A DNA stretch of 64,000 nucleotides, from contig JAIYAW010000007.1 in assembly GCA_027488835.1 (NCBI GenBank), forward strand, positions 124,001-188,000, given 5' to 3'. The position numbers and the translations under genes were made by a program. The notes under the pieces were generated by a model. The model saw only the letters and a list, made by a program, of their open reading frames with translations. It searched no databases and had not been told where the DNA came from. Positions 13,472 through 61,302 of this stretch are shown one piece after another. Source of the DNA: Bacteroidota bacterium (lineage in GTDB: Bacteria; Bacteroidota; Bacteroidia; NS11-12g; UBA955). Each line of letters opens with the position of its first letter. Position 1 is the first letter of the stretch.

Positions 13472-16090
13472 TTATTTCACCAATATTTTAACAGCTTGGG
13501 TATTCACAACACCGTTGATAGATGCCAAGTAATAACCAGTTGTCAAATGAGCAACATTAACTGAAATAGCATTTGAGCCATTTGTAATTTGAATATTTTT
13601 AGTAATCACTGCCTTACCTGTTAAATCGTAGATGGTAACAGTTGCAGCACCAGATTTAGCAGCAGTGAACGAGAAGTTTGTGATATCAGAAGTTGGGTTA
13701 GGATATGCATTCAAAGACACTTTTGTATTTTGGATGTTTTTGTTTCCAGTTAACAAAGTTGATGAACGGAAATATCCACGGCCATGAGTACCAATGTACA
13801 TTGACATCCCTTCCCAAGGTTTCCATTCGTAACCACGAATTTCAAATACCGCTACACGTGCCATACCTTGGTTCGCTTCTTCCCATTTAACACCGCCATT
13901 TTCAGTTACCCAAATTCCCAAATCAGTACCTAAAATGATTCTGCTTGGATTGTCGATATCTACAACCGCATCATAAACAGGCATAGAAGGCAAGTTGCCA
14001 GTAATGTTTGTCCATGTTGGATTCAAATCAAGTGCATTTTTAGATTCCATTACATATATATTTGAAGAACTACCATAATTACCTAAGGTAATTACCACGT
14101 GGTTAGAATCAGCCATATCCACATTCACCGATGTGATAGTTCTACTAGAAGAAATCCCGGGAACCGTTAATTGTTTTGTTACAACACCATCTGGAATATC
14201 ATTCACACCAGGATTTGCTTTCACAGAAAAATCAGCATCTTTCAAACCTGAAGTTCGGAACAATGCACCTTGTTTACAAGAAAACAAATGGTTACCGTCT
14301 GGAGTGTAGTCCATTTCAATAATTCTTCCATTTCCTAAACCTCCTGCAACACGAATCCATACTACGTCGTTTGCAAAATCAGTAGGATTTACAGCAGCCC
14401 AAATTTCAGAATTCTTAGCTAAATATAATTTGGATGTTTTTGCATCTTGCTCCCACAAACTGAAAGTGGTATTAAAGTCAGATTGTATAGTTCCTGTTTG
14501 ACGTTTATCAAAGAAAGTTGAACTTGATTGACCTTGGTTACCTGAACGCACAACAGTTCCGTAATAAGTACACATGAAAGTAATGTTAGGATTGAATCTT
14601 GAGAATTCAACATCAAACCCATCACCACCATAAATACTCACTCCTGTTTTTGACTGCTCACCTGCAGGCGCATTTCCTTTGAAATTGACCAAAAATGTAC
14701 CATTGTCTTGAGCTCCACCCATAACATGACCTAACTCATTTGAAGCCACATTGTATAATTGCAATGTTGTATATCCTCTATTGATTGATGTCCATGTACC
14801 TAAATTAGTAGAAGAGTAAAGACCACCATCACTACCCACAATACAAGTTGCAGGTTTGGTGTTCATATTCCACATAATAAGATGTTTATCGGCATGAACA
14901 TAACCACTGTTCCATGGCGCACCGAAAGTGCTACCAATTTGGGTATACCCATTTACTTCATCCCAAGTAGCCAAATCAACACCACCCATTAATACTTTAT
15001 TTTTATTGCCTGGAACAACTCCAACCACGTTATCGTACCATCCTTGGGTGTTCGGTCCAAAAATATCGGTTACAGAATTACCATAAACCAATTGTGTCCA
15101 TGTAGTTCCACCATCTGTAGTTCTATACAAACCATCCATCTTACCCCCGTTTGTTGCAACTAGCAAATAAACGTAGTTCACATCATCAGGTGAAATAGCA
15201 ATTGCTATACGTCCACCAGCTGGAAATGATTTATTCAATTTCATTGCACCTGTTGCGTCTGATTTGTATACAGCACCCCCATTATTTGATGCCCAAATGG
15301 TTCCGGCATTGTCAATTTTAACTTCTTTGATTGAAGATCCATTGATTTTTTTCGGAGAAACAACACCTTCTGTAAATTCATACAAGCCAGCATCAGTTCC
15401 TACGTAATATTTATTTAACGTTGGATGTGCAACCATACTGTTACAAACATCAAACGTTCCATTGTTGGTACCGGGCATTAAAGAAAATTTTGTACCGCTT
15501 AAATTATCACTTTTGAAGATACCATTACCAATGAACGCCGGGGAACCATTTCTGGTACCAGAAAGATTTGTAAACCCACCTTCACCGGTGCCATAATAAA
15601 TGTTACCGCTTGGAGTTTGAGCCATACAAGTAACGTTTAGATTTTCTTGCATGTCGTTTACGGGTTTCCAACTTTGGCCATAAGTAGTAGATCTAAATAA
15701 CCCACCACTCACAGAACCTACAAACCATATGTTTGCAGAATCTTTGTGAATTACCAAAGCACGGGTTCTGCCACCAACGTTGTCTGGACCCATATTCTGC
15801 CAAACAATATTTTTATTCAATCGGCTTTTGATTTGAAGTGCATCTGCCTGGGCAATTGCCTGCTTGATCCATTCCGGTTCAAGTGTTCCCGTTTTTTCGT
15901 TCAGTCTCATACTGTACATCGAACGCAATGCACCCTCAATTTCCTCAGTAGGATTTTCCTCTGATTCATTTTCGAAAGAAAACAATTCAGTAAAATTAGG
16001 AGCTTTGATGGTGTTATTAAATCCAAGTAAACCAATTCCTAAACAGATTCCCGCAGAAAGTGCGATGGGTAAATATGACTTTATCTTCAT
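13472..16090 (-). CDS. T9SS-secreted beta-propeller (sortilin/BNR-repeat) protein
   Basis: An 872-residue secreted protein. An N-terminal signal or anchor segment (about 5-25) precedes repeated propeller blades with 'SxDxGxTW'-like turns (FRSTTYGQSWKPVND, LYRTTDGGTTWTQL, YSSTNLGTWTSIN). The last 80 or so residues are a type A T9SS sorting domain (NAYPNPTSDITNFSF ... YDLTGKAVITKNI ... LTTGYYLASI), so it should cross the outer membrane through the T9SS and be anchored or released. The start is MKIKSYLPIAL (ATG 16088-16090). It is a paralogue of the protein at 53115-55820; both share NIGGRTRA/NVGGRTRA and GSVSGG motifs. The ligand or substrate is unknown; peptidase activity cannot be claimed. 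Confidence 0.88.
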   Translation of the reverse strand: MKIKSYLPIALSAGICLGIGLLGFNNTIKAPNFTELFSFENESEENPTEEIEGALRSMYSMRLNEKTGTLEPEWIKQAIAQADALQIKSRLNKNIVWQNMGPDNVGGRTRALVIHKDSANIWFVGSVSGGLFRSTTYGQSWKPVNDMQENLNVTCMAQTPSGNIYYGTGEGGFTNLSGTRNGSPAFIGNGIFKSDNLSGTKFSLMPGTNNGTFDVCNSMVAHPTLNKYYVGTDAGLYEFTEGVVSPKKINGSSIKEVKIDNAGTIWASNNGGAVYKSDATGAMKLNKSFPAGGRIAIAISPDDVNYVYLLVATNGGKMDGLYRTTDGGTTWTQLVYGNSVTDIFGPNTQGWYDNVVGVVPGNKNKVLMGGVDLATWDEVNGYTQIGSTFGAPWNSGYVHADKHLIMWNMNTKPATCIVGSDGGLYSSTNLGTWTSINRGYTTLQLYNVASNELGHVMGGAQDNGTFLVNFKGNAPAGEQSKTGVSIYGGDGFDVEFSRFNPNITFMCTYYGTVVRSGNQGQSSSTFFDKRQTGTIQSDFNTTFSLWEQDAKTSKLYLAKNSEIWAAVNPTDFANDVVWIRVAGGLGNGRIIEMDYTPDGNHLFSCKQGALFRTSGLKDADFSVKANPGVNDIPDGVVTKQLTVPGISSSRTITSVNVDMADSNHVVITLGNYGSSSNIYVMESKNALDLNPTWTNITGNLPSMPVYDAVVDIDNPSRIILGTDLGIWVTENGGVKWEEANQGMARVAVFEIRGYEWKPWEGMSMYIGTHGRGYFRSSTLLTGNKNIQNTKVSLNAYPNPTSDITNFSFTAAKSGAATVTIYDLTGKAVITKNIQITNGSNAISVNVAHLTTGYYLASINGVVNTQAVKILVK

Positions 16091-16135
16091 AAAATATCTT
16101 TTTTTCTTTTTTAAATAGAGAAAACTCTCGAATCG

Positions 16136-16166
16136 CAAATTAATGCAAAAAGAGGGTCTTTTCCAA
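16136..16166 (-). promoter_or_regulatory. candidate promoter for the secreted propeller gene
   Basis: On the minus strand TTG (16164-16166), a 20-base spacer and TTAATTTG (16136-16143) approximate the Bacteroidota pattern TTTG-N20-TAnnTTTG. The ATG lies about 45 bases downstream. The match is imperfect. The same TTAATTTG octamer precedes the metalloprotease gene (63896-63903, minus strand). Confidence 0.35.
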
Positions 16167-47068: not shown

Positions 47069-49210
47069 TTACTTAAAAAGCATAAAGCTCATTCCTAAGT
47101 GAAACTGATAATACCAATCGTTTAAGCCATCCGTTGAACGCGGAATACTCACACCAATTTTATCCTTTAAATCAGAACCAGATATTTTAATCATATCGGA
47201 TTGTGAAATATTATCATATTTACTGAATGCCGTTTCAACCATTTTGTCATAATTGCCACCAAACCAAACTCCGGGACCAAAATCATCCAAATAATCGGTA
47301 GATGTATAGACGACTTTCATTTCTCCTTTCAGTGCAAATCGTTTCCTTAAATAAGTCAAACTAAATGACGATCCTAAATTAAATGCAATCGTACTATAAG
47401 GGGATTTCCCAGGTAAGAAATTTTGCCCTTCTGAACCCAACAAACGCAAGTTCCATAAATGTTCATTATTCATCCTGTCCAAATACTGACTCTGAGTTTC
47501 TTTATTTTTGCCAGAATATCTCCTTCTTGTGTAGGCATATCTGTATGGCGTGAAGTACAAAATACCCAAACTTAAACCTAATGATGGAATAAGTTTAGAT
47601 TTTTTACCTTTATCAATTTCGTATGATCGCAAATGCCACAATCCTTCTAACTCTAAAACACCCATTTTGGTTAAAAAATGTACTGGATAAGAGGTTTTTG
47701 ATACCCTTAATGGATTATAAGAACTATCATAAGATTGCAATGGTTTGGTTCCAGAAAATAAACCAGCAGCATATAAATTGTGCGTAGAGATTGAACTATA
47801 ATAACCACTAATTTTCATGCTAAATCTTGTATTAACATTGAACTGTTGATATAATCCAAAACTCGTTTCAATTGTAGACGGCAATAATTTTTCTCCAAAT
47901 TTAGCCTTGATATCACCACCGCCATAAATGGCACCTCCACCCCACAAACCCAACTCCCACGTATGTAATTTTTTAACGATTTCACCTTTACTTTTGAATA
48001 CTGGCAACTTAAAATTCATACCAATTACATCTGATTGTTCTTTTATCGCTATCAAAATCTTTTTCTCATTTAAAAATTTATTGTACTCAGCAGTATCAAT
48101 TTTTGATAATTCTAATAGTTTATCATTGGTAACATTTGGTGTGGGTATTTTTACTTTTTGACCATTTGCCAAAACCCCGATTGTTGGTTTTCCTTGAATA
48201 TAATTTAAATTTATGGTGTCTCCATTTCTTAAAGTGGTATAGTCTACGCTATTACCTGATGAATCAAGCATTTTTACAAATGATGCACTTCCAATCATGT
48301 TTAATGAAACTTGTCCGAAATTATGAGAAATACTTTTGATTACATCTGATGAACCGTTCTCATTCAATGATAACTTTTTATCTACCAAAAGAGTAGGTAT
48401 TCTATTGTCGATATGTTTGTCATAAATAAGATCTTCCGTTGTATTTGATTGATAGATTTTATCAATATTCAGTGTCAAAGCTCCATTACCTGCAATAGAA
48501 ACACCTACAGGATTATTTCCAGAATAGTTTCGAGTAAAACTCAATGATCCCACCTTAATATTAGAAGATTTGTATATCGATGCTAAATCAAAATGAATCA
48601 ACCCCATTGAATTTAAATTACCCATCAAATTGTTGTCTAAAAAATTCAAATTATCCAATTGATATTGAATCCCATCAGAGCCAACATTTTCTAGTAAAAT
48701 ACCTGCACTATTGTTAATGAAATTTCCATTATCAATTGTGAATTCGATTTTGTTTCCATCACGCAAATCAGTCAAAGATGTTGCAACATAAATCAAAGGT
48801 TCACCAGAATTTGAATTCCAAATATCTATATTCTTTAACTCAACTTGTTTTCTATACCAGAATGGGTCGAATCTGAGAGGTTGAATTAAACCATCGAACT
48901 TAACATTATTCAATTCAACTTTAGATTTGAGGTTAGATCCAGAAATCACAATACCCAAACCACTCATGTTTTGATCAATATTTTTAAAAATTACCGGGTT
49001 TGATGCAGTTCCATTCACGATCAAAGAACCTTCTACTTGCAGCAATGCACCAGAACCAAATTCAACCACCGAACCGGCAGGAATTGTTAACGTTTCACCA
49101 ACGGGTACAAACTTAAAATCTGTAATTTTCACAACAGACTGACCGAACAAATGATTGGCAGCAAAAGCCAACATGAAAAAGAATATTTTATTTAGACTTA
49201 AGGTCTTCAT
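47069..49210 (-). CDS. outer-membrane protein: beta-helix-like region joined to a PorG-like barrel
   Basis: A 713-residue exported protein (signal peptide 1-23, ending LFG). Residues 30-310 repeat short strands in the manner of a parallel beta-helix (LTIPAGSVVEFGSGALLQVE, GSLIVNGTASNPVIFKNI). A helical linker at about 360-395 follows. Residues 418-713 resemble PorG/DUF6089, a small T9SS outer-membrane barrel: WELGLWGGGAIYGGGDI, LRLLGSEGQNFLPGKSPYST, STDYLDDFGPGVW and a terminal LNDWYYQFHLGMSFMLF. PorG itself lacks the N-terminal domain. Last gene of the motor operon, overlapping the upstream GldM-like gene by 4 bases. I infer that it is the outer-membrane partner of the motor. Confidence 0.7.
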   Translation of the reverse strand: MKTLSLNKIFFFMLAFAANHLFGQSVVKITDFKFVPVGETLTIPAGSVVEFGSGALLQVEGSLIVNGTASNPVIFKNIDQNMSGLGIVISGSNLKSKVELNNVKFDGLIQPLRFDPFWYRKQVELKNIDIWNSNSGEPLIYVATSLTDLRDGNKIEFTIDNGNFINNSAGILLENVGSDGIQYQLDNLNFLDNNLMGNLNSMGLIHFDLASIYKSSNIKVGSLSFTRNYSGNNPVGVSIAGNGALTLNIDKIYQSNTTEDLIYDKHIDNRIPTLLVDKKLSLNENGSSDVIKSISHNFGQVSLNMIGSASFVKMLDSSGNSVDYTTLRNGDTINLNYIQGKPTIGVLANGQKVKIPTPNVTNDKLLELSKIDTAEYNKFLNEKKILIAIKEQSDVIGMNFKLPVFKSKGEIVKKLHTWELGLWGGGAIYGGGDIKAKFGEKLLPSTIETSFGLYQQFNVNTRFSMKISGYYSSISTHNLYAAGLFSGTKPLQSYDSSYNPLRVSKTSYPVHFLTKMGVLELEGLWHLRSYEIDKGKKSKLIPSLGLSLGILYFTPYRYAYTRRRYSGKNKETQSQYLDRMNNEHLWNLRLLGSEGQNFLPGKSPYSTIAFNLGSSFSLTYLRKRFALKGEMKVVYTSTDYLDDFGPGVWFGGNYDKMVETAFSKYDNISQSDMIKISGSDLKDKIGVSIPRSTDGLNDWYYQFHLGMSFMLFK

Positions 49211-50586
49211 GATTTTATAATTTCAATTAATAATGGTTGAGTTAATTTGATTTCTTTAAAAGTAGTTTTGATTTCTACTTCATTGATTAATATATATTTC
49301 AATTTTGCAATATCGATTCCACTTAAATCAATTTTCCCAGACTGTGTAGATTTAGTTTCACGATTCAGTCCAATCAAAGTATAACTCACTTTGGAAATAT
49401 TATATCCAAAATTATTCACATCCGGATGAAAGGGAACGATTGAAATGGATTTGGTTTGAGAAATCCTGTTGTAAGATATTTTATTTCCAGAGGCTCCGTT
49501 TACAATAATTTGTGGTGTCGGTATATCTTGTACGAATAAAGAATCCAACAACAACAATTGTCCATTTGAACTTGAAACTTGAAATGCACACCAACCGGGA
49601 CTTTGCGGTGTAAAATCAATAGTTGCATTAGACTGTGAAATTTGTGTTCCTTCAGCGCACGTGCAATAAACTTTTTCCGCTTTCAAAACGTTGGTGTATT
49701 TTACGGATGCTTTTTTGCCTACAAAGAAAGTTTGCAACGCATCTTTTTTGTCATCAGAAAAACCAGCAGGTATCACTGTAATAGAGAGTTTGTCTGTAAC
49801 ACCTTTGGAATTGAATTCAATATTGTATTGACCCGTAGTTTTTGGAATGAAGAACAAAGTGTCTCCTTTCCATTTATAATCGTTGACCACAGTTCCATTT
49901 AAATCAAAATTAACTTTGGTTTCTGATTTTTTTGCGATAACAAAAGTTGCAGTATCCCCCGGTTTCAAAACATCCAAATTATACGCCATCATTATAATTT
50001 TATCTGTTTTGTCTCCGATACTTCCTAATTCTACTGCCCCATTTAGCAAATTTAGACGCAATCTCAATTCGGCGAGTAATGTTTTAACCACAGTGGCAGG
50101 AGTGTGTTTGAATTTCCATTCAGACCACAAAAATGATTTGTTATTCTTCAAGCCATTTTGTAAATCTTGACTAAATAATTTTTCAAATTCTTTTCTTTTC
50201 AGATTAGTTTGAGGCAAACTTTCAAAATAATTTTTTAAGTCAACTAACTTTTTAAACAAAAAATCTGCTTTTTTCTCGATAATAAAAAAGTTATCCGTAA
50301 CTGCATATCCTGTAGGCTCATTGATGGTTTTGGTTTTCTCATTAATTCCGAGCTGCTGAGTGTATTCTGCGTCAATTTGATCAACAGCATCCAAAGCAGA
50401 CTTAATTTGTATTACAGAAACTGTTTTCGAGGTGGTTGAATTCAAATATTCAGTAAATTTTGGATTAATTCTTAACCATTCAATTGGAATTTGAATAATT
50501 GATAAAGAAACAAACAACAAGTATAACAAACTTATTAATCGAAAACGCAAATTCTTACTATTGGAAATTCTTACTAATTTTGCCAT
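49207..50586 (-). CDS. GldM-like motor shaft protein, copy B
   Basis: A 459-residue protein with one N-terminal membrane span (about 17-34) and a large periplasmic part, as in GldM/PorM (about 515 residues). Its start, SNSKNLRFRLISLLYLLF, aligns without gaps with the GldM opening 'LTPRQKMINLMYLVF'; Arg14 falls on GldM Arg9, the residue that meets the GldL glutamate. The helical region HTPATVVKTLLAELRLRLN matches the GldM segment before its immunoglobulin-like domains, and beta-rich domains follow (from about 215). A CxC (KVYCTCAEG) sits in the periplasmic part. It lies one base after copy A and overlaps the PorG-like gene by 4. Confidence 0.7.
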   Translation of the reverse strand: MAKLVRISNSKNLRFRLISLLYLLFVSLSIIQIPIEWLRINPKFTEYLNSTTSKTVSVIQIKSALDAVDQIDAEYTQQLGINEKTKTINEPTGYAVTDNFFIIEKKADFLFKKLVDLKNYFESLPQTNLKRKEFEKLFSQDLQNGLKNNKSFLWSEWKFKHTPATVVKTLLAELRLRLNLLNGAVELGSIGDKTDKIIMMAYNLDVLKPGDTATFVIAKKSETKVNFDLNGTVVNDYKWKGDTLFFIPKTTGQYNIEFNSKGVTDKLSITVIPAGFSDDKKDALQTFFVGKKASVKYTNVLKAEKVYCTCAEGTQISQSNATIDFTPQSPGWCAFQVSSSNGQLLLLDSLFVQDIPTPQIIVNGASGNKISYNRISQTKSISIVPFHPDVNNFGYNISKVSYTLIGLNRETKSTQSGKIDLSGIDIAKLKYILINEVEIKTTFKEIKLTQPLLIEIIKS

Positions 50587-50587
50587 C

Positions 50588-51991
50588 TTATTTCACTAAA
50601 ATTATTGGCTGACCTACCTGAGCAGACCCGCTTTGTTGTCCAACTAATTTAATATTGTCAAAAATGACAGTACTACCGCTAGGCGCCTTGGCTTCCAAAT
50701 CTCTCAACTCATTTCTCAAATAACGTGTCGCACTTTTCAATGTTTGTTTGTTACCTTGTGGATCCACAACTGTCATGTTGAAATTCACAACCTGCCAATA
50801 GGTGCTTGTGGACTCAAGTCTGTTCGCTTTATCAAGGCTTGCCAACTGACCTCCCATATCCATCAATCCAACTGGTATTGCACCTGGTTCTCGGGCATAC
50901 ATATTTACTTTATCCACCAATTGATTATCCACTTTCATTTGAATTTCAAAGACACCTGACTCCGTTGGAGTTATGTACAAGGCGTTTTTTATTCTTACAA
51001 TCGAAGCTTTGTTTGAAAAAAATGTTACCCCTTTTTTAGGAATAAATTGTGAATCAATACTCAAAATACACTTAGATCCAACAACTACATCAAGATTCGA
51101 ACGCTCCATGGAAAATCGAAATTCTGGTTTCAACACATTAAATCCGCTTAACAAGCGTTTTTCACCCAAAATTACCTCAAGTGCATAATTACCCGAACTT
51201 AGTGGGTTATAACTCACGGTATAAATTGTATTCGATGTTTGTTTAACTTCAACCAATTTGCCATTGATTTTAACAGATGGTATGACACCCGTTTTATCTG
51301 TTTTGATAGATAATACCAATGTTTCGCCCAAAACCAATGAGCGTCTAAATTTTTCAATAAAATTAGCATCATTTATGGTAATTAATTCAAACTTGGGTAA
51401 GTCAATAATTTGGTGTGTTAGCTCGACTACCGAATTATACAACAAAACTGTTTTGAAGTGTTCAAAAATAGAATTCACAACGCCATTGGGTGTTTCTTTA
51501 AAGAAAAATTCTATTTGTTGAAAGTCATGTTGACTAAAATCTTTCAGACTTATCAGATCATTGGATAAATCTTTTTTAGAACATTTTGTAAAGGAGGATA
51601 AATAATTATTCAAAATACTTCGAAAAGTAGGCGACAATGGACCATTTCTCACTATTTTTTCAGCGAAATAGTTTTCCTTAATTTTATCACCTTTGACCAA
51701 GTTGTTATCAGCATATTTGACATACTCCGATTCCAAATTGGTTAAACTGTTGATGCACGCTATAGTCGTATTCTTCAATTCTAATTCTTGAGGGATCTCA
51801 GAATTAAATGAATTTAGCTTGCTCAACAACCGTTGGTTCAATTCAATTTGCGTGGTTGCAAGATTGGTATAGTGAATAACATATTGTCCTGGGCTCGAGA
51901 AAAATAAAAACAAAATAAAAACCAAATACAAGAGAGATAATTTCTTGAAAGAAAGGTTTTTAGAATGTGATATTTGTATGGTAGATCCCAT
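50588..51991 (-). CDS. GldM-like motor shaft protein, copy A
   Basis: A 467-residue paralogue of the next gene: SHSKNLSFKKLSLLYLVF aligns residue by residue with copy B. One membrane span (about 18-34), a helical first periplasmic domain (ETPNGVVNSIFEHFKTVLLY), then beta-rich domains. The C-terminus GSTVIFDNIKLVGQQSG and the preceding NFNMTVVDPQGNKQTLKS resemble the last GldM domain ('GDKIYFEDIKAKGPDG'). At the position of GldM Arg9 it has Ser14, with Lys16 and Lys17 nearby. The pair may form a heterodimer in place of the GldM homodimer. It starts 8 bases after the GldL-like gene. Confidence 0.72.
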   Translation of the reverse strand: MGSTIQISHSKNLSFKKLSLLYLVFILFLFFSSPGQYVIHYTNLATTQIELNQRLLSKLNSFNSEIPQELELKNTTIACINSLTNLESEYVKYADNNLVKGDKIKENYFAEKIVRNGPLSPTFRSILNNYLSSFTKCSKKDLSNDLISLKDFSQHDFQQIEFFFKETPNGVVNSIFEHFKTVLLYNSVVELTHQIIDLPKFELITINDANFIEKFRRSLVLGETLVLSIKTDKTGVIPSVKINGKLVEVKQTSNTIYTVSYNPLSSGNYALEVILGEKRLLSGFNVLKPEFRFSMERSNLDVVVGSKCILSIDSQFIPKKGVTFFSNKASIVRIKNALYITPTESGVFEIQMKVDNQLVDKVNMYAREPGAIPVGLMDMGGQLASLDKANRLESTSTYWQVVNFNMTVVDPQGNKQTLKSATRYLRNELRDLEAKAPSGSTVIFDNIKLVGQQSGSAQVGQPIILVK

Positions 51992-51999
51992 TGAAAATA

Positions 52000-52488
52000 C
52001 TATTTTCCGCCTAAAATATTGTTGTATTTATCGTTAATTTGACGCAAATTGCCGTTGTATGTCGACATTAACTCATTAAATTCCGACATTCTATTTTGCA
52101 TTTCAGCTGAATTTTTGGCATTGGCTTCCATTTCAGCTTTGATTTGTTGAACACTAACGCTCATTGATTTCATTTGAGCATTTAATTCAGTAATTGTTGC
52201 ACTGAACTGTGTCATTGCATCATTGTAGACATTTGTATCAGGAGATGCAGTGCCTTGGTTTTGCAATTGAGGAAACACATTTTCCCAATTATACTCTTTA
52301 TCTTCAGTTTTTCTTTCAAATGCTGAGATTAAGAATACAATGGCCTCAATACTCAAACCTATGATAAATAATTCGTTAGCAAACTGCCAACCCAAGAATT
52401 TAAACATGGCACCAACGAGCACCACCGCAGCACCAAATCCATAGACAAAGGTGATTGCATCTAATTTTCCTTTCGGTTTATTATTCAT
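52000..52488 (-). CDS. GldL-like stator protein of a proton-driven motor
   Basis: A 162-residue protein with two membrane spans (about 12-31 and 37-56). FVYGFGAAVVLVGAMFKFLG and IIGLSIEAIVFLISAFE match GldL/PorL closely; Glu48 aligns with GldL Glu49, the protonatable residue of the motor, and Lys30 with GldL Lys27. After the second span comes YNWENVFPQL, as in GldL, then a cytoplasmic coiled coil (about 85-160) ending STYNGNLRQINDKYNNIL, like the GldL C-terminus. It is shorter than GldL (about 215) because the middle linker is reduced. GldL forms a pentamer around the GldM span and is powered by proton flow. Genes for two GldM-like proteins follow. Confidence 0.85.
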   Translation of the reverse strand: MNNKPKGKLDAITFVYGFGAAVVLVGAMFKFLGWQFANELFIIGLSIEAIVFLISAFERKTEDKEYNWENVFPQLQNQGTASPDTNVYNDAMTQFSATITELNAQMKSMSVSVQQIKAEMEANAKNSAEMQNRMSEFNELMSTYNGNLRQINDKYNNILGGK

Positions 52489-52518: not shown

Positions 52519-52998
52519 TTATTTTTTTAACAAATGAGTTTGAAAGTCATTCCAATTTGCAATGTTCTGATTTAATGCCTTTTTGGTAGATGAACGCATG
52601 ATTGTTATTGCAACAACCACCACACCAATCAATGCTAAAACGAAGTAAATCAATTGATTATTGAATTTAGAATCTAAAGTATCTTGCACTCCTTTGACCG
52701 TTTCGTTTTGCTTTTCAAACTTCTTTGCAAACTCATCCAATGCCAAATTCATTGCGCGCTCATTTTGTGCTTGCAATTCTTGAGATTTGGTAATTTCCGT
52801 TTGCAATTTATCGGTCATTCCGGATAATGTATTTTCCAACTTTCGATTACTCTCCTTTACCGACTTTAACTCATTAGATAACTTTTGATTACGAGATTCA
52901 AGGATTCTGATTCTCTTATCAAAATCATTGTCTCTTTCTCCTTGACTATAAGCGAATATAGGAGCAATTAATAACAATATAGTAGTTAAAAATTTCAT
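52519..52998 (-). CDS. exported coiled-coil protein with C-terminal membrane anchor
   Basis: A 159-residue protein not recognised as any named family. A signal peptide (1-19, ending FAYSQ) is followed by a long coiled coil (about 26-105; KRIRILESRNQKLSNELKS) and one membrane span (115-134, LIYFVLALIGVVVVAITIM), then a short basic tail (RSSTKKALNQNIANWNDFQ). The predicted topology is a periplasmic coiled coil with the tail in the cytoplasm. First gene of the motor operon, 30 bases before the GldL-like gene, so it is probably a motor part or assembly factor. No equivalent is known to me in the GldKLMN set. Confidence 0.6.
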   Translation of the reverse strand: MKFLTTILLLIAPIFAYSQGERDNDFDKRIRILESRNQKLSNELKSVKESNRKLENTLSGMTDKLQTEITKSQELQAQNERAMNLALDEFAKKFEKQNETVKGVQDTLDSKFNNQLIYFVLALIGVVVVAITIMRSSTKKALNQNIANWNDFQTHLLKK

Positions 52999-53020: not shown

Positions 53021-53028
53021 CAAAGATA
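53021..53028 (-). promoter_or_regulatory. candidate -7 promoter element for the motor operon
   Basis: The minus strand reads TATCTTTG, an exact match to TAnnTTTG, 22 bases before the ATG of the coiled-coil gene and inside the 116-base gap after the secreted propeller gene. I see no TTTG at the -33 position. It suggests the operon can be expressed separately from the upstream gene. Confidence 0.4.
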
Positions 53029-53114: not shown

Positions 53115-55820
53115 TTATCGAATCACTTGTAAAACCTTTGTGATATTTATGCCATTTGCCAAATGAATCTTCACATAATAAACTCCATTCGCGAATAAAT
53201 TACAATGATATTGATTTTTATCAATGTCAGATTGATTCATCTTTTTCACCAACCTACCACATTCATCTAAAATTTCAACAGCACTGATTTTCAAAAACGC
53301 ACTTGATTTGATAGAAAACCACCCAATCGATGGATTGGGATAAATACTCAAATCAAATTTAGTGAGGTCATTTGCTTTTAAAATATCTGTTGTATTGAAT
53401 AGCCTTGCTGAGTATATTCCATTTCCATGTGTTGCCAATGCAACCGTTCCATCTTTTAACCGAACATCAAACATATCACAAACCATATTCCCTATCTCCC
53501 CGCTGGCTTGTTGAACCCAAACAGTTGAAGTCCCTTTCAACGTATCCGTTGCAAAAAAGCCAGTGCTCGTTGCAGCTAGATAAATTCTCCCATTTTCCAC
53601 AGGCACAATTGACAACCAACGAACAGATGGACCATTTCCTGAACCATTTGCGTTTTGTTCTAAATTACCAGCCGCTTTCGTCCAAGTTTTGCCAGCATCT
53701 GTGGAGCTGAAGATACTGTAAATTCCATAATTAGAATACGATACCATCACATGATTTCCATTGTTTGGATCGGCGGTAATACAACTGACGTTACCTATTG
53801 GTAAAACTACATTGCTCGTGATATCAACTGCCAACATTTGACCTTTATTTGCACTATCAACCCGGTACACTTTTTTGTTAGAAGCGCCATAGTAAACTCT
53901 GTTCGCAGGTGTTTTACAAACATGCAACGCCGTTATTGTTGCATTTGCCAACGACACCGAATCTTTTGCTTTTATCCATCCAAATGAAATTGAATCATTT
54001 TTATTGTCTAAAACAATTTCATTCAATTTATCGTTTCTCCATAAATATTTACCTCCAGCCAAATACATGATATTATTGTTGTTCGGATCCAATGCAAATG
54101 GATTGATAAATTGATATTTTTCAGCACCAATGGGATCAATTCTTCGATAAGCAATCCTATTCATTGAATTATCGATTTGCGCTTTTATCATTTTACCTTG
54201 TTGTTTTGACAAATAAAAATTCTTTGCGCCATCGTCAATCGCATTGTACGCCCCATCTCCAAAGTAAACAGACTTCCAAGGTGATTTCAAGTCAAATGAA
54301 TTTGTCATGAGGGAATTGTTATCTTGGGCACCAGCTATTAAAAGATTGCTCATTTCAGTTCCATGATCCAATGTGACTGAATAGAATTGGGTGGTTAAAT
54401 ATCCGTTATTTAATGACTCCCATACCATAGAATCCATAGTATTGTCATTGCTTCTGTATACTCCTCCGTCGTTTGCGTTTATCATTTTATTTGGATTTGA
54501 GGGATAAAAAACCAAATTATGTTGGTCGGGATGATGATTTGGATAAGTTCCAACATCTGGAAAAGCTGCTCCAATTTTATATCCACCAATCATTCTCGTT
54601 TTCAATGAATCTGCAAAGGCCGATTTGGATCGAAACACATTCGTCCCTCCAATAAAAACAACGTTTGAATCAGCAGGATGAACCCTTACAAACATGTCAT
54701 ATGATCCCTGAACATTCCAACGTTCAAAAGGCCCTCCACTGGGTAGATTCAAAGACAAATCTGTCCATTTCCCTGTATCTCCACCACCGGATTTGTTTGA
54801 AAATTCACATTTCAAAAGTGCATTCCATTCAATATCGCCTTTATAATTTGCGGTTTTTTTACCCCAACCAGAAGTATTGGCTAAGAAGTAAACTTTATTT
54901 TCATTTTGTGGATCAACACCAATTACAACCCTTTGATATTTTTGTGATTGCATAAACTGCGGAGTAATATTTACAAAATCAACTCCATTTGTAGATCGCC
55001 AAATTCCTTTGTTACTTCCTTCCGAACTCATTGTAAAATAAACGGTTCCATTTTGAGTAACAAAAACGTCGGTAAAATAAGATCCCCCCGTTTTTATAGA
55101 TTTCCAAGTTTTACCGCCGTCGGATGATTTCAATAAGTTATTATAGGTTGCTGCATAAATTACAGTTTCCATATCCGGTGCTGATGGATCTAAAACTACA
55201 TTCCAAATCAATTGCCAGTTGGTGGAAAAAGCTGTTGGAACACCACCAGAGGTTGAAGTGATTTGTGACCAAGATTTTGCACTATCTGTAGAAATGAATA
55301 ATCCGTCGCCCAAGTAATATGCACCAGGAGCCCCGGCAGACTGTCCGTATGCTTCCCCCGAACCCATAATCCAAACATTTCTATGATTCTGGCGCGTATC
55401 CTGAGCAACACAGGTAGCTGTTCTTAGTTCATTTGTTCCTTGCGTTGGCATCCAAGTATTGCCATTGTCTTGGCTCAGCCACATACCTCCTGAAACTGAC
55501 CCCGCTATTAATCTATTTTCATTTGCAACGTCTATTCCAAATGCCCTGGTTCTACCACCAATATTAAAAGGTCCACGGTGATACCAGGGTGTTCCTCTCA
55601 AAGCAATACCATCGGCATCGGATGATTTTGGCAAAGTTTGTGCAAAAGCCAATTCTTTCAATCGAATATTCATTGGAATTTTGCCAGTTGCCGGATCATT
55701 TAATCGGCTTAATTCATATCCAGATCTAGTTGAAGCCCCATGCTGTTGGGCATTGGTTGGGAAACAAAGTAAATTGATGAATAAGAAACTAAGAAAAATC
55801 TTTTGAGGGTACAATTTCAT
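53115..55820 (-). CDS. T9SS-secreted beta-propeller (sortilin/BNR-repeat) protein next to the motor operon
   Basis: A 901-residue secreted protein. The signal peptide (about 1-24) ends FPTNAQQ. Propeller blades carry 'SxDxGxTW' turns (LSQDNGNTWMP, KSSDGGKTWKSI, SSTDAGKTWTKA). The end is a type A T9SS sorting domain (IYPNPSIGWFSIKS ... ILDECGRLVKKM ... FANGVYYVKIHL). It is a paralogue of the protein at 13472-16090 (shared GGRTRA and GSVSGG blades). I start at MKLYPQKIFLSFL (ATG 55818-55820); a longer frame reaches 55928 but would precede the signal peptide. It is upstream of and on the same strand as the GldLM-like operon; a functional link is only suggested. Confidence 0.85.
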   Translation of the reverse strand: MKLYPQKIFLSFLFINLLCFPTNAQQHGASTRSGYELSRLNDPATGKIPMNIRLKELAFAQTLPKSSDADGIALRGTPWYHRGPFNIGGRTRAFGIDVANENRLIAGSVSGGMWLSQDNGNTWMPTQGTNELRTATCVAQDTRQNHRNVWIMGSGEAYGQSAGAPGAYYLGDGLFISTDSAKSWSQITSTSGGVPTAFSTNWQLIWNVVLDPSAPDMETVIYAATYNNLLKSSDGGKTWKSIKTGGSYFTDVFVTQNGTVYFTMSSEGSNKGIWRSTNGVDFVNITPQFMQSQKYQRVVIGVDPQNENKVYFLANTSGWGKKTANYKGDIEWNALLKCEFSNKSGGGDTGKWTDLSLNLPSGGPFERWNVQGSYDMFVRVHPADSNVVFIGGTNVFRSKSAFADSLKTRMIGGYKIGAAFPDVGTYPNHHPDQHNLVFYPSNPNKMINANDGGVYRSNDNTMDSMVWESLNNGYLTTQFYSVTLDHGTEMSNLLIAGAQDNNSLMTNSFDLKSPWKSVYFGDGAYNAIDDGAKNFYLSKQQGKMIKAQIDNSMNRIAYRRIDPIGAEKYQFINPFALDPNNNNIMYLAGGKYLWRNDKLNEIVLDNKNDSISFGWIKAKDSVSLANATITALHVCKTPANRVYYGASNKKVYRVDSANKGQMLAVDITSNVVLPIGNVSCITADPNNGNHVMVSYSNYGIYSIFSSTDAGKTWTKAAGNLEQNANGSGNGPSVRWLSIVPVENGRIYLAATSTGFFATDTLKGTSTVWVQQASGEIGNMVCDMFDVRLKDGTVALATHGNGIYSARLFNTTDILKANDLTKFDLSIYPNPSIGWFSIKSSAFLKISAVEILDECGRLVKKMNQSDIDKNQYHCNLFANGVYYVKIHLANGINITKVLQVIR

Positions 55821-55958
55821 TCCGTGAAATTGGCACATTCTTTTCACTTTCGCAAAAAAGTAGAAATAATTTGCAAAAAATGCAAAACATTTATGTCCAA
55901 AAAAATGCGCAATCATAAAAATTAACATATCAAAATAACAATAAATATGAGAATGTAC

Positions 55959-59427: not shown

Positions 59428-61302
59428 TTATAATTTGTATGCAACGCCAAACATTGTCCACCTACTTGGCAACGGAACAGTAGAAATCTCGGCAAATTGT
59501 ATATTGTTGATATTTTGAAAATTCAAATAAGCATTCATTTTCTGGTTCACCGCATAAGTCAACTTTCCACTAAAAATCTTGTAGGTTGTTTGACCAACAT
59601 TCCGATCAAAAATCCTACACTGAAAATTGGCATTTAACCCTCTAATAATTTTAAAGTCTAACCCAATGACCGCCTGATTTCGTAAATAGTTCAGCGCATT
59701 TTTAGAAATAAGCTGATCATTGCCGAAGTTCTGCGCATTTAATTGGCAAAAGCTACCATGGACGTTAATTTCAAAAGGCTTGTATATAGGAAAATCAATT
59801 TTTGCTTCCCATCCCAAAAATGTATTCTTGTTATAATTAATAGGCGACCATGCACTATCAACGCTCGGTCTTACCCAATCAATCAAATTATCTGTATTGC
59901 GGTTAAATGCACTCAAAGAGAATAAAGTTTGATTAAACCCATATTTGAAACCGAGTTCGGAACTTACCGCATTTTCAGGCAATAAATTTGGATTACTCAC
60001 ATTCGTTCTTCCTATGTAGTACAAATCAGTAAAAGTTGGTAGTCGCTGACCCGTCCCTACATTTCCAAAAAACTGAATGCGATTGTTCAGTTTGTAATTC
60101 ATTTCTATTCCTGGATAGATTTTCTTACCTAAAATGCTGTTTTGTAAAAAATACAATCCACCTGAAACGACGAAATCTTTGCCAAAAACCTTTTTTACAT
60201 CAATAAACGCACCTAAAAATGACCTATCTCTATTTCCCAAATTGGAGCTTTGAATCGATTCATACCTGCCTTCAATTCCAAGAGCAAAATTCGTATTCCA
60301 CTTTTTTCCTGAAATCCCTAATTCTGGCATATATGTTTGTGCACGATGAATGTTCTGTGAAAAAGATGGATTTTCCTAACGGTAGATATAATGATCATAA
60401 TTCATTCTAGAACCCAAACCCACATAATAATTTATACCTAATTTGGATGATAAACCTGTCAATTTTATATTCCCCAATGATGTATTCACCGTTTCGGTTG
60501 AATTTGAGTCCCCCGGTGCCGCATAAAATCCATTGGCACCAAATTTATTATTTACAACACCACCCAAAAGATTGAGTTTTGCTTTCCCTTTAAACAAAGA
60601 AAAATTTATCTCTCCGATATTTCGGTATGTCAAATAATCTGAATTATGACGATAGCCATTGCTTTGATCAATACCAGAAGAAAACCAACTTGAAATGGTA
60701 TTACTTTTATTTGAAATTGAAGCAAAAATTCTTGCCCCTTGATTTGAATAGAATTCATTATTTCTATTTTTTTCAAAGTTAGAACCGCTAAACACATTTA
60801 CCAGAACTTGATTCTTTTGAAGGGTATTCGTGATAATGTTAATTACCCCCGCCATTGCATTTAAACCATAGCGCCTGGCATTTGCACCTTTCATAACTTC
60901 AATGTGATCAATTGCCTCAAGCGGAATAGGCAAATTTAATGAATTATGACCGGTTTGTGCATCTGTAACCCTTACCCCATTCACCAAAATTAAAACCTGA
61001 TCGAAACCACTGCCTTGAATGCCAATATCTGCTTGAACACCACCAATTCCCCTTTGCCTCAAATCAATTCCAATTGCGTATGCCAGAACATCATTGATTG
61101 TTTGACCTGGAATTTTTTTAATGTCGCTTTGAGTAATTATCGTAGTATTGTAACCTGTTTCCCTCAACAACAATGGAACTCTATTCGACTGAATACTTAC
61201 TGAAGTTTCCTCTATCTTTAAAAAGTCTACATTAAGACTATCTTGTGAATATAACAGCGCAGAAGCACTCAAAGAGAATAAAGAAAGAAATACTTTTTTC
61301 AT
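59428..61302 (-). pseudogene. TonB-dependent outer-membrane receptor interrupted by an in-frame TAG
   Basis: One reading frame from ATG 61300-61302 to 59428 would give a receptor of about 624 residues, normal for BtuB-type receptors, but codon 309 (60376-60378) is TAG. Before it: signal peptide (1-19), a plug with TIITQSDIKKIPGQTINDVL, LILVNGVRVTDAQTGHNSL and IDHIEVMKGANARRYGLNAM, and the first barrel strands. After it the frame continues as ENPSFSQNIHRAQTYMPELG with further strands to a normal terminus (WTMFGVAYKL). There is no frameshift. An internal ATG (60328) could make a C-terminal piece without a plug. It may be a recent pseudogene, a sequencing error, or a read-through site. The substrate is unknown. 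Confidence 0.85.

Follow-up and report, generated by a model that had tools for sequence, protein, structure and literature searches.

The closest described relatives of the system reported here are the motors formed by GldL/PorL and GldM/PorM in a 5:2 ratio in type IX secretion (T9SS) and gliding. In F. johnsoniae GldL, the motor does not function without E49, and gliding requires E59 (PMC8986121). A second paper states that rotation of GldM requires GldL to be anchored; the anchor is unidentified there, and an unidentified cytoskeletal partner is proposed for the role (PMC9389320). PorG, an outer-membrane partner, is joined to GldK by a cysteine in its C-terminal tail (PMC12635249). In AglRQS of Myxococcus, as in the locus below, a single ring protein goes with a pair of axle paralogues (there AglQ and AglS), but AglRQS consists of MotAB/TolQR-type proteins; the likeness is one of architecture, and homology is not claimed. 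Whether AglQ and AglS form a heterodimer is an open question (PMC9389320).

Here we describe an operon from a Bacteroidota genome, found in a window of 64,000 nucleotides (the whole stretch of DNA analyzed). Its five genes, called CC, L, M1, M2 and OM, and the motif that precedes them are:

53021..53028, minus strand: promoter motif TATCTTTG (TAnnTTTG, −7-type), starting 30 bp upstream of CC
52519..52998, minus strand: CC, predicted coiled-coil inner-membrane protein of 159 aa, operon gene 1
52000..52488, minus strand: L, GldL/PorL homologue of 162 aa, with matches to PF22827, TIGR03513 and GldL structures in the PDB
50588..51991, minus strand: M1, putative diverged GldM paralogue of 467 aa, without the TM-flanking Arg (Ser14) and acid (Gln36)
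49207..50586, minus strand: M2, putative diverged GldM paralogue of 459 aa, with Arg14 and Glu36 kept
47069..49210, minus strand: OM, with a signal-peptide-like N-terminus, a predicted right-handed beta-helix (residues ∼25–250) and a PorG-like barrel (∼415–713)

The genes are closely packed, with gaps of 30 bp (CC-L), 8 bp (L-M1), 1 bp (M1-M2) and −4 bp (M2-OM), and 141 bp separate OM from the next gene, which encodes 2-oxoglutarate dehydrogenase E2. TAnnTTTG, which we take to be a −7-type promoter consensus, occurs no more than 150 bp upstream of CC at 9 of 13 loci, compared to 0.12 expected per shuffled upstream sequence, and in five of these nine it is at −30/−31. Values of dN/dS against locus L026 range from 0.06 to 0.14 for all five genes, indicating purifying selection. 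Neither GldK nor GldN is present among the five genes and their two neighbors. The gldK and gldN genes stand with canonical gldL and gldM elsewhere (G000:C5), and GldK, GldL, GldM, GldN, PorP and PorG are all found above cut-offs elsewhere in the source genome. Among the open-licence PMC papers listed for GldL/GldM homologues, none describes an accessory operon of such make-up in its title or the beginning of its abstract.

An accessory GldL, two unequal M proteins and a PorG-like partner

L scores well above the cut-offs for GldL_N (PF22827; 88.3 bits versus 24) and TIGR03513 (96.5 bits versus 68.3), and its E48 and E58 sit at the positions of the TMH2 glutamates E49 and E59 of GldL. Both glutamates are present in 10/10 CC-type L rows aligned, out of 14 CC-type L copies in all. 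In a tree of GldL sequences from this order, 24 accessory GldLs separate from 30 canonical ones at 100/100 support. Because this tree has long branches, unsettled bootstrap values and a midpoint root, only the canonical/accessory split was used. Small membrane proteins with weak similarity to GldL_N (36–45 bits) were also seen at L106 (5811–6305, 164 aa) and L107 (5555–5944, 129 aa); they share an LFKxxHWP motif, and no neighbor matched the M1 or M2 profiles.

M1 and M2 are harder to place. A filamin-like domain is found in 9/10 M1 members and GldM_4th in 2/10, with M1 of the window at 17.8 bits, under the GldM_4th cut-off of 24.6; NCBIfam gave no GldM match for M1, nor did a PDB search with the M1 profile. 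M2 of the window reaches 14.9 bits against GldM_1st (cut-off 25), and 8/9 M2 members match this domain at E≤0.1 (best 6.6e-8); a PDB search with the M2 profile gave no GldM match. What the PDB searches with these two profiles did return was filamins (E of 0.08 or worse) or nothing, and these matches were not used. When aligned directly to two canonical GldMs with hhalign, M1 and M2 gave only 0.2% and 4.3%. Related clusters, described below, encode a single GldM of ∼560 aa, and to this protein M1 aligns at 96.8% (E 2.5e-10) and M2 at 94.3% (E 1e-7), while M1 and M2 align to each other at 94.8% (E 5e-8). The single GldM profile in turn aligns to canonical GldM at 97% (E 9e-11) and matches GldM/PorM structures (7cmg, 7saz, 6ys8, 6ey5), and the three GldM Pfam domains are present in 8, 10 and 10 of 10 single-GldM members. 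On these comparisons, M1 and M2 are probable GldM paralogues, linked to the family indirectly, through the single GldM of the related clusters.

The Arg that flanks the TM helix of GldM has a mechanistic role. An Arg at this site, eight positions ahead of the TM tyrosine, occurs in 10/10 single GldMs, 9/9 M2 proteins and 0/10 M1 proteins, and an acidic residue 14 positions after this tyrosine in 9/10, 9/9 and 0/10, respectively. M2 has thus kept both residues and M1 has lost both, which suggests an asymmetric, M1:M2 heterodimeric axle. As GldM E31A of F. johnsoniae shows no gliding phenotype (PMC8986121), loss of the acid in M1 may mean little, and loss of the Arg is more telling.

OM combines two parts. 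The PorG model NF052316 is matched by 7/7 CC-type OM members (best E 2.1e-9) and also by 8/8 members from the simpler clusters (best 3.9e-23). Bit scores for two members, 19.3 (OM of the window) and 55.4, are both below the equivalog cut-off of 130, compared to 151.9 for the canonical PorG of the same genome. OM is thus like PorG in its barrel part, but differs in scoring under the cut-off, in its N-terminal beta-helix and in its cysteines: the C-tail cysteine of PorG has no counterpart in the CC-type OM proteins, 7/7 of which have no cysteine at all. An AlphaFold2 model built from two sequences has block means of 64–83 for residues 31–130 and lower values beyond, with a whole-model pLDDT of 42. 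Since the model is poor outside the beta-helix, it is the PorG profile that carries the assignment of the barrel. VIA comparisons of the modeled beta-helix gave Z values up to 18.5, including pectate lyase 3t9g (Z 16.3, rmsd 3.1 over 180 residues), and Pfam Beta_helix is found in 1/8 members of the OM alignment. On the model, the N-terminal half of OM is a right-handed parallel beta-helix. The top Foldseek matches (lyases, tailspikes) were read as evidence of fold, not function.

The OM profiles of the CC-type and simpler clusters align with a probability of 99.9% (E 7e-32); PDB sequence searches with both profiles gave nothing useful. Across the phylum, the OM profile matches 132/395 genomes, through the barrel part (ORFs mostly 260–380 aa) or the beta-helix part. 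With two candidates scored per genome, none of the matches listed from outside the source genome spans both halves. Two side observations concern related genes. The OM gene of G007 is split into two ORFs (L038, 4238–6379), representing a pseudogene or an assembly error. At G000:C1:260384 (L130) there is a tandem pair of PorG genes, one above the PorG cut-off and the other just under it; both products bear a cysteine near the C-terminus, unlike OM of the operon.

The CC protein

CC is encoded by an ORF with an ATG start. Full-length identity to CC is 83% in two other genomes and 40–67% in the remaining aligned homologues, and dN/dS is 0.10 for the closest homologue; comparison with another, for which dS is saturated, gave 0.05. 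The ORF is coding, and CC is a real gene under purifying selection. Its parts are predicted as follows:

52945..52998, minus strand: signal peptide, residues 1–18, by the −3/−1 rule, with the predicted cut before Q19
52672..52791, minus strand: membrane-proximal coiled coil, residues 70–109, the best-conserved part of the protein
52591..52659, minus strand: TM helix, residues ∼114–136, in a hydropathy stretch of ∼111–139
52522..52590, minus strand: basic tail with a conserved NWNxFQxHLLKK-like end, presumably cytoplasmic

Ahead of Q19, which is invariant, positions −3 and −1 carry small residues in all 13 aligned homologues (background 4.5%), which argues for a signal peptide cleavable by SPase I. 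Between residues 21 and 110, hydrophobic periodicity in the 3.4–3.74 range beats the shuffle mean in 13/13 rows, although this range also fits ordinary amphipathic helices as well as coiled coils. The best period is 3.52–3.56, and the fraction of 500 shuffles with a value as high was 0.000 for the protein of the window, ≤0.034 in 12 rows and 0.078 in the remaining row. Five of the 13 aligned sequences differ from the others by a gap of seven residues, precisely one heptad. AlphaFold2, given four sequences, modeled CC as a single unbroken helix from residue 2 to 158 (pLDDT 85.5, pTM 0.31). The net charge of the tail is +1 to +3. From these features we infer a periplasmic coil of ∼90 residues, one TM helix and a cytoplasmic C-terminus. 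The original prediction had read a signal peptide, a coiled coil of ∼80 residues and a C-terminal membrane anchor with a basic tail in the ORF at 52519–52998; all three hold up across the homologues, the coil being closer to 90 residues.

Conservation is distributed unevenly along the protein. Only 1/50 positions of the distal coil is invariant, compared to 17/40 in the membrane-proximal coil (9 in the heptad core and 8 on the surface, in a register that we assigned) and 8/26 in the tail. Conservation thus clusters near the membrane, where the proximal coil and the tail form two spots resembling binding sites. The distal coil, variable yet heptad-regular and with a one-heptad indel, appears spacer-like, and a role as periplasmic spacer or scaffold would fit these properties.

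Pfam and NCBIfam contain no family that matches CC above cut-off. The generic coiled coils and partial, sub-threshold hits returned from Pfam, NCBIfam and the PDB were not accepted as homology. No peptidoglycan-binding or wall-binding domain was recognized in CC by the Pfam and NCBIfam scans. Mature CC is without cysteine in 13/13 sequences and hence has no lipid-anchor residue. FliL, which stabilizes the 5:2 flagellar stator motor, is also small, crosses the inner membrane once and extends into the periplasm, and in these respects CC is similar. Unlike CC, however, FliL has an N-terminal TM helix and a stomatin-like domain, and FliL was not among the Pfam or NCBIfam matches of CC. We know of no CC-like partner of AglRQS.

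Distribution of the operon and its simpler relatives

Within the order of the source organism, CC occurs in 14/108 genomes, in 15 copies altogether (G024, with a 20-bit partial match, is left out of this count). In all 14 copies with a continuing contig, that of the window included, CC is followed by L; the contig of the 15th copy stops inside CC. Further downstream, wherever contigs reach, the order is the same: M1 in 13/13, M2 in 11/11 and OM in 10/10 (two OMs partial and one split). M2 occurs in 13/108 genomes of the order, leaving out G062, where a 34-residue match lies in M1. Eleven genomes have both CC and M2, and the five mismatches (CC only in G052, G062 and G064; M2 only in G012 and G043) are contigs that end within the operon. 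That CC leads a tightly spaced motor operon, next to a GldL-like gene, had been proposed from the window itself, and the GldL/GldM context proves right; the operon also includes OM and a further GldM paralogue.

Among the candidates scored from the phylum as a whole, full-length CC and M2 were each found in 1/395 genomes, namely that of the source. One caveat here is that these alignment searches scored part of the first-look candidates, and hence absence is not absolute. More than one strong GldL (E 1e-15 or better) was likewise found in 1/326 genomes, again the source, compared to 74 with any strong GldL. Weak matches to CC with partial cover and <30 bits were dropped (G009, G070, G121, G138, G024, G013:C87, G400, G175 and G266); the last three, partial coiled-coil matches, are the only ones seen besides the source genome among the 395. 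No full-length copy of CC was found away from the operon in the 108 genomes of the order or among the candidates scored from the 395 phylum-wide. Thus, CC is present at homologous loci of the M1/M2 type and is not common elsewhere in the genomes searched, and the accessory GldLM motor is so far seen only in the source's order.

The operon is patchily distributed in the genus, with no match in G001 (98% complete) or G006 (96%). In both genomes an OmpA-family gene with TSP3 repeats is found instead, directly upstream of the E2 gene (L147, 2066–3250; L148, 6717–7823). G088, a member of another family, carries a CC-type operon including CC, suggesting joint transfer as a unit. G013 has two different CC-type operons (C74 and C108), with L identities to the window of 98% and 63%; the second may be on a contaminant contig.

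Simpler clusters were found at 11 loci in another family of the order (L095–L104, L108). These resemble the operon in having an accessory GldL, a GldM and an OM with beta-helix and PorG-like parts, but contain one full-length GldM with the conserved Arg. OM adjoins L-M at nine of the 11 loci (in one case split into two ORFs) and lies apart at two. No ORF of at least 80 aa matched the CC profile at any of the 11, and there is no CC-like gene in the neighborhood of the source's canonical gldL. These loci rule out CC as a general GldL partner and indicate that CC accompanies the duplicated GldM. For the suggestion that CC is a fifth motor part, the genomic evidence (14/14 adjacency, no full-length stray copy) is favorable where GldM is duplicated, but the suggestion does not extend to the 11 single-GldM clusters.

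Possible roles of CC, and flanking genes

We propose that CC is a dedicated subunit of an accessory motor, acting as an anchor or scaffold, and put the probability of this reading as a whole at about 0.5. Its two parts differ in strength. It is highly probable that CC belongs, as a dedicated additional subunit, to a GldLM-type motor encoded by CC-L-M1-M2-OM, given its adjacency to L, its co-occurrence with M2, purifying selection and the joint occurrence in G088. That it anchors or scaffolds the L ring and a split axle is a tentative reading, to which we would give somewhat less than even odds; it draws on the conservation of the proximal coil and tail, at the level expected for the L ring and the foot of the M proteins, and on the stated need for GldL to be anchored (PMC9389320).

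The resemblance to the GldL-GldM motor is in L, with scores above GldL cut-offs and both conserved glutamates, and in the single-M relatives, which match GldM/PorM structures and to which M1 and M2 align. The differences are the two unequal GldMs, CC, the missing GldK and GldN, and the beta-helix-PorG fusion. From homology, we infer that 5:2 (L5:M2) stoichiometry, rotation and proton flow would apply to this motor as well. Five L subunits would form a ring, driven by protons, that surrounds an M1:M2 heterodimer, in which M2 alone would supply the conserved Arg. Proton flow would move the M1:M2 arm, and the beta-helix of OM, in the periplasm, would replace the GldKN ring in taking the push of this arm directly. 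CC would oligomerize via its coiled coil alongside the axle. The L ring would be gripped by the TM helix and cytoplasmic tail of CC, and the stalk of CC, ∼14 nm long (93 residues × 0.15 nm), would extend in the direction of the wall or the outer membrane. As an anchor or scaffold, CC would stop the L ring from idling and align, or collar, the split axle. The full scheme of a self-contained, track-less GldLM motor, in which the beta-helix-PorG protein replaces GldKN, an asymmetric M1:M2 heterodimer is the axle and CC anchors the GldL ring, is speculative, and we regard it as less likely than not.

Because the single-GldM clusters and canonical GldLM manage without CC, such an anchor is not required by every motor of this kind, and CC is a candidate GldL anchor for the variant motor only. 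Against this role, CC has no recognized wall-binding domain or lipid-anchor cysteine to hold its distal end, and the conservation of the tail and proximal coil is just as compatible with a collar, a gate or an assembly factor.

As a gate or regulator, CC would use its periplasmic coil or cytoplasmic tail to plug or sense, switching proton flow through L-M1-M2. The MotB plug, and FliL at the flagellar stator, provide parallels. The strong conservation beside the membrane and in the short tail, the position of CC as first gene and the lack of a visible CC in the simpler L-M-OM clusters, as possible for a regulator, would all agree with such a role. A heptad-regular stalk of ∼90 residues with a one-heptad indel, however, exceeds the needs of a plug, and the Pfam and NCBIfam scans gave no sensory domain; we allow gating a minor chance. 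CC might instead help to assemble or stabilize the motor, bringing M1 and M2 together as a heterodimer and handing them over to the L ring, with no role in torque. The association of CC with the M1/M2 duplication, CC being unseen with the single GldM, speaks for this idea, but that correlation comes from few lineages and the conserved tail and TM helix suggest permanent residence; its chance is about as small as that of gating.

In a further alternative, the operon encodes another stator for the canonical T9SS/gliding machinery: L, M1 and M2 would drive the GldKN ring encoded elsewhere, with CC as an adaptor. The complete canonical set in the same genome, all above cut-offs, and the GldM kinship of M1 and M2 are compatible with this. 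Yet the operon has a PorG-like partner of its own, fused to a beta-helix and without the cysteine by which PorG joins GldK (PMC12635249), and M1 and M2 fail direct alignment to canonical GldM; we consider such a stator distinctly improbable. CC as a passenger gene, functionally unlinked to the motor, agrees with its variability outside the C-terminal half but is very hard to reconcile with the 14/14 adjacency, the joint presence and absence, the joint occurrence in another family and purifying selection.

Some uncultured bacteria carry a second, altered copy of the gliding/protein-export membrane motor, with CC as its constant and probably functional extra part. If CC is an anchor subunit, then it would be the kind of GldL-ring anchor sought in the canonical motor. 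The operon also suggests a way to energize an outer-membrane PorG-like protein without a GldKN track. Two open questions are touched, as posed in PMC9389320: what stops the GldL ring from idling, and whether or not the AglRQS axle is a heterodimer. A split-axle motor with a candidate anchor and a related lineage with a single GldM and no CC make both testable by comparison.

The T9SS-sorted protein encoded upstream of the operon (53115–55928, minus strand) was considered as a cargo of the motor and rejected; a homologue is present in the operon-less G006, and none was seen beside the operon in L031, L032 or L038. This protein has a T9SS C-terminal sorting domain, and the product of 13472–16138 (minus strand) looks alike by eye; the two are similarly built, with BNR/sortilin-like repeats. 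The frame of a TonB-dependent-receptor-like gene at 59428–61302 (minus strand), 625 codons long, is broken by a stop at codon 309, and intact orthologues of 626 and 623 aa are found in the same neighborhood in L031 and L032.
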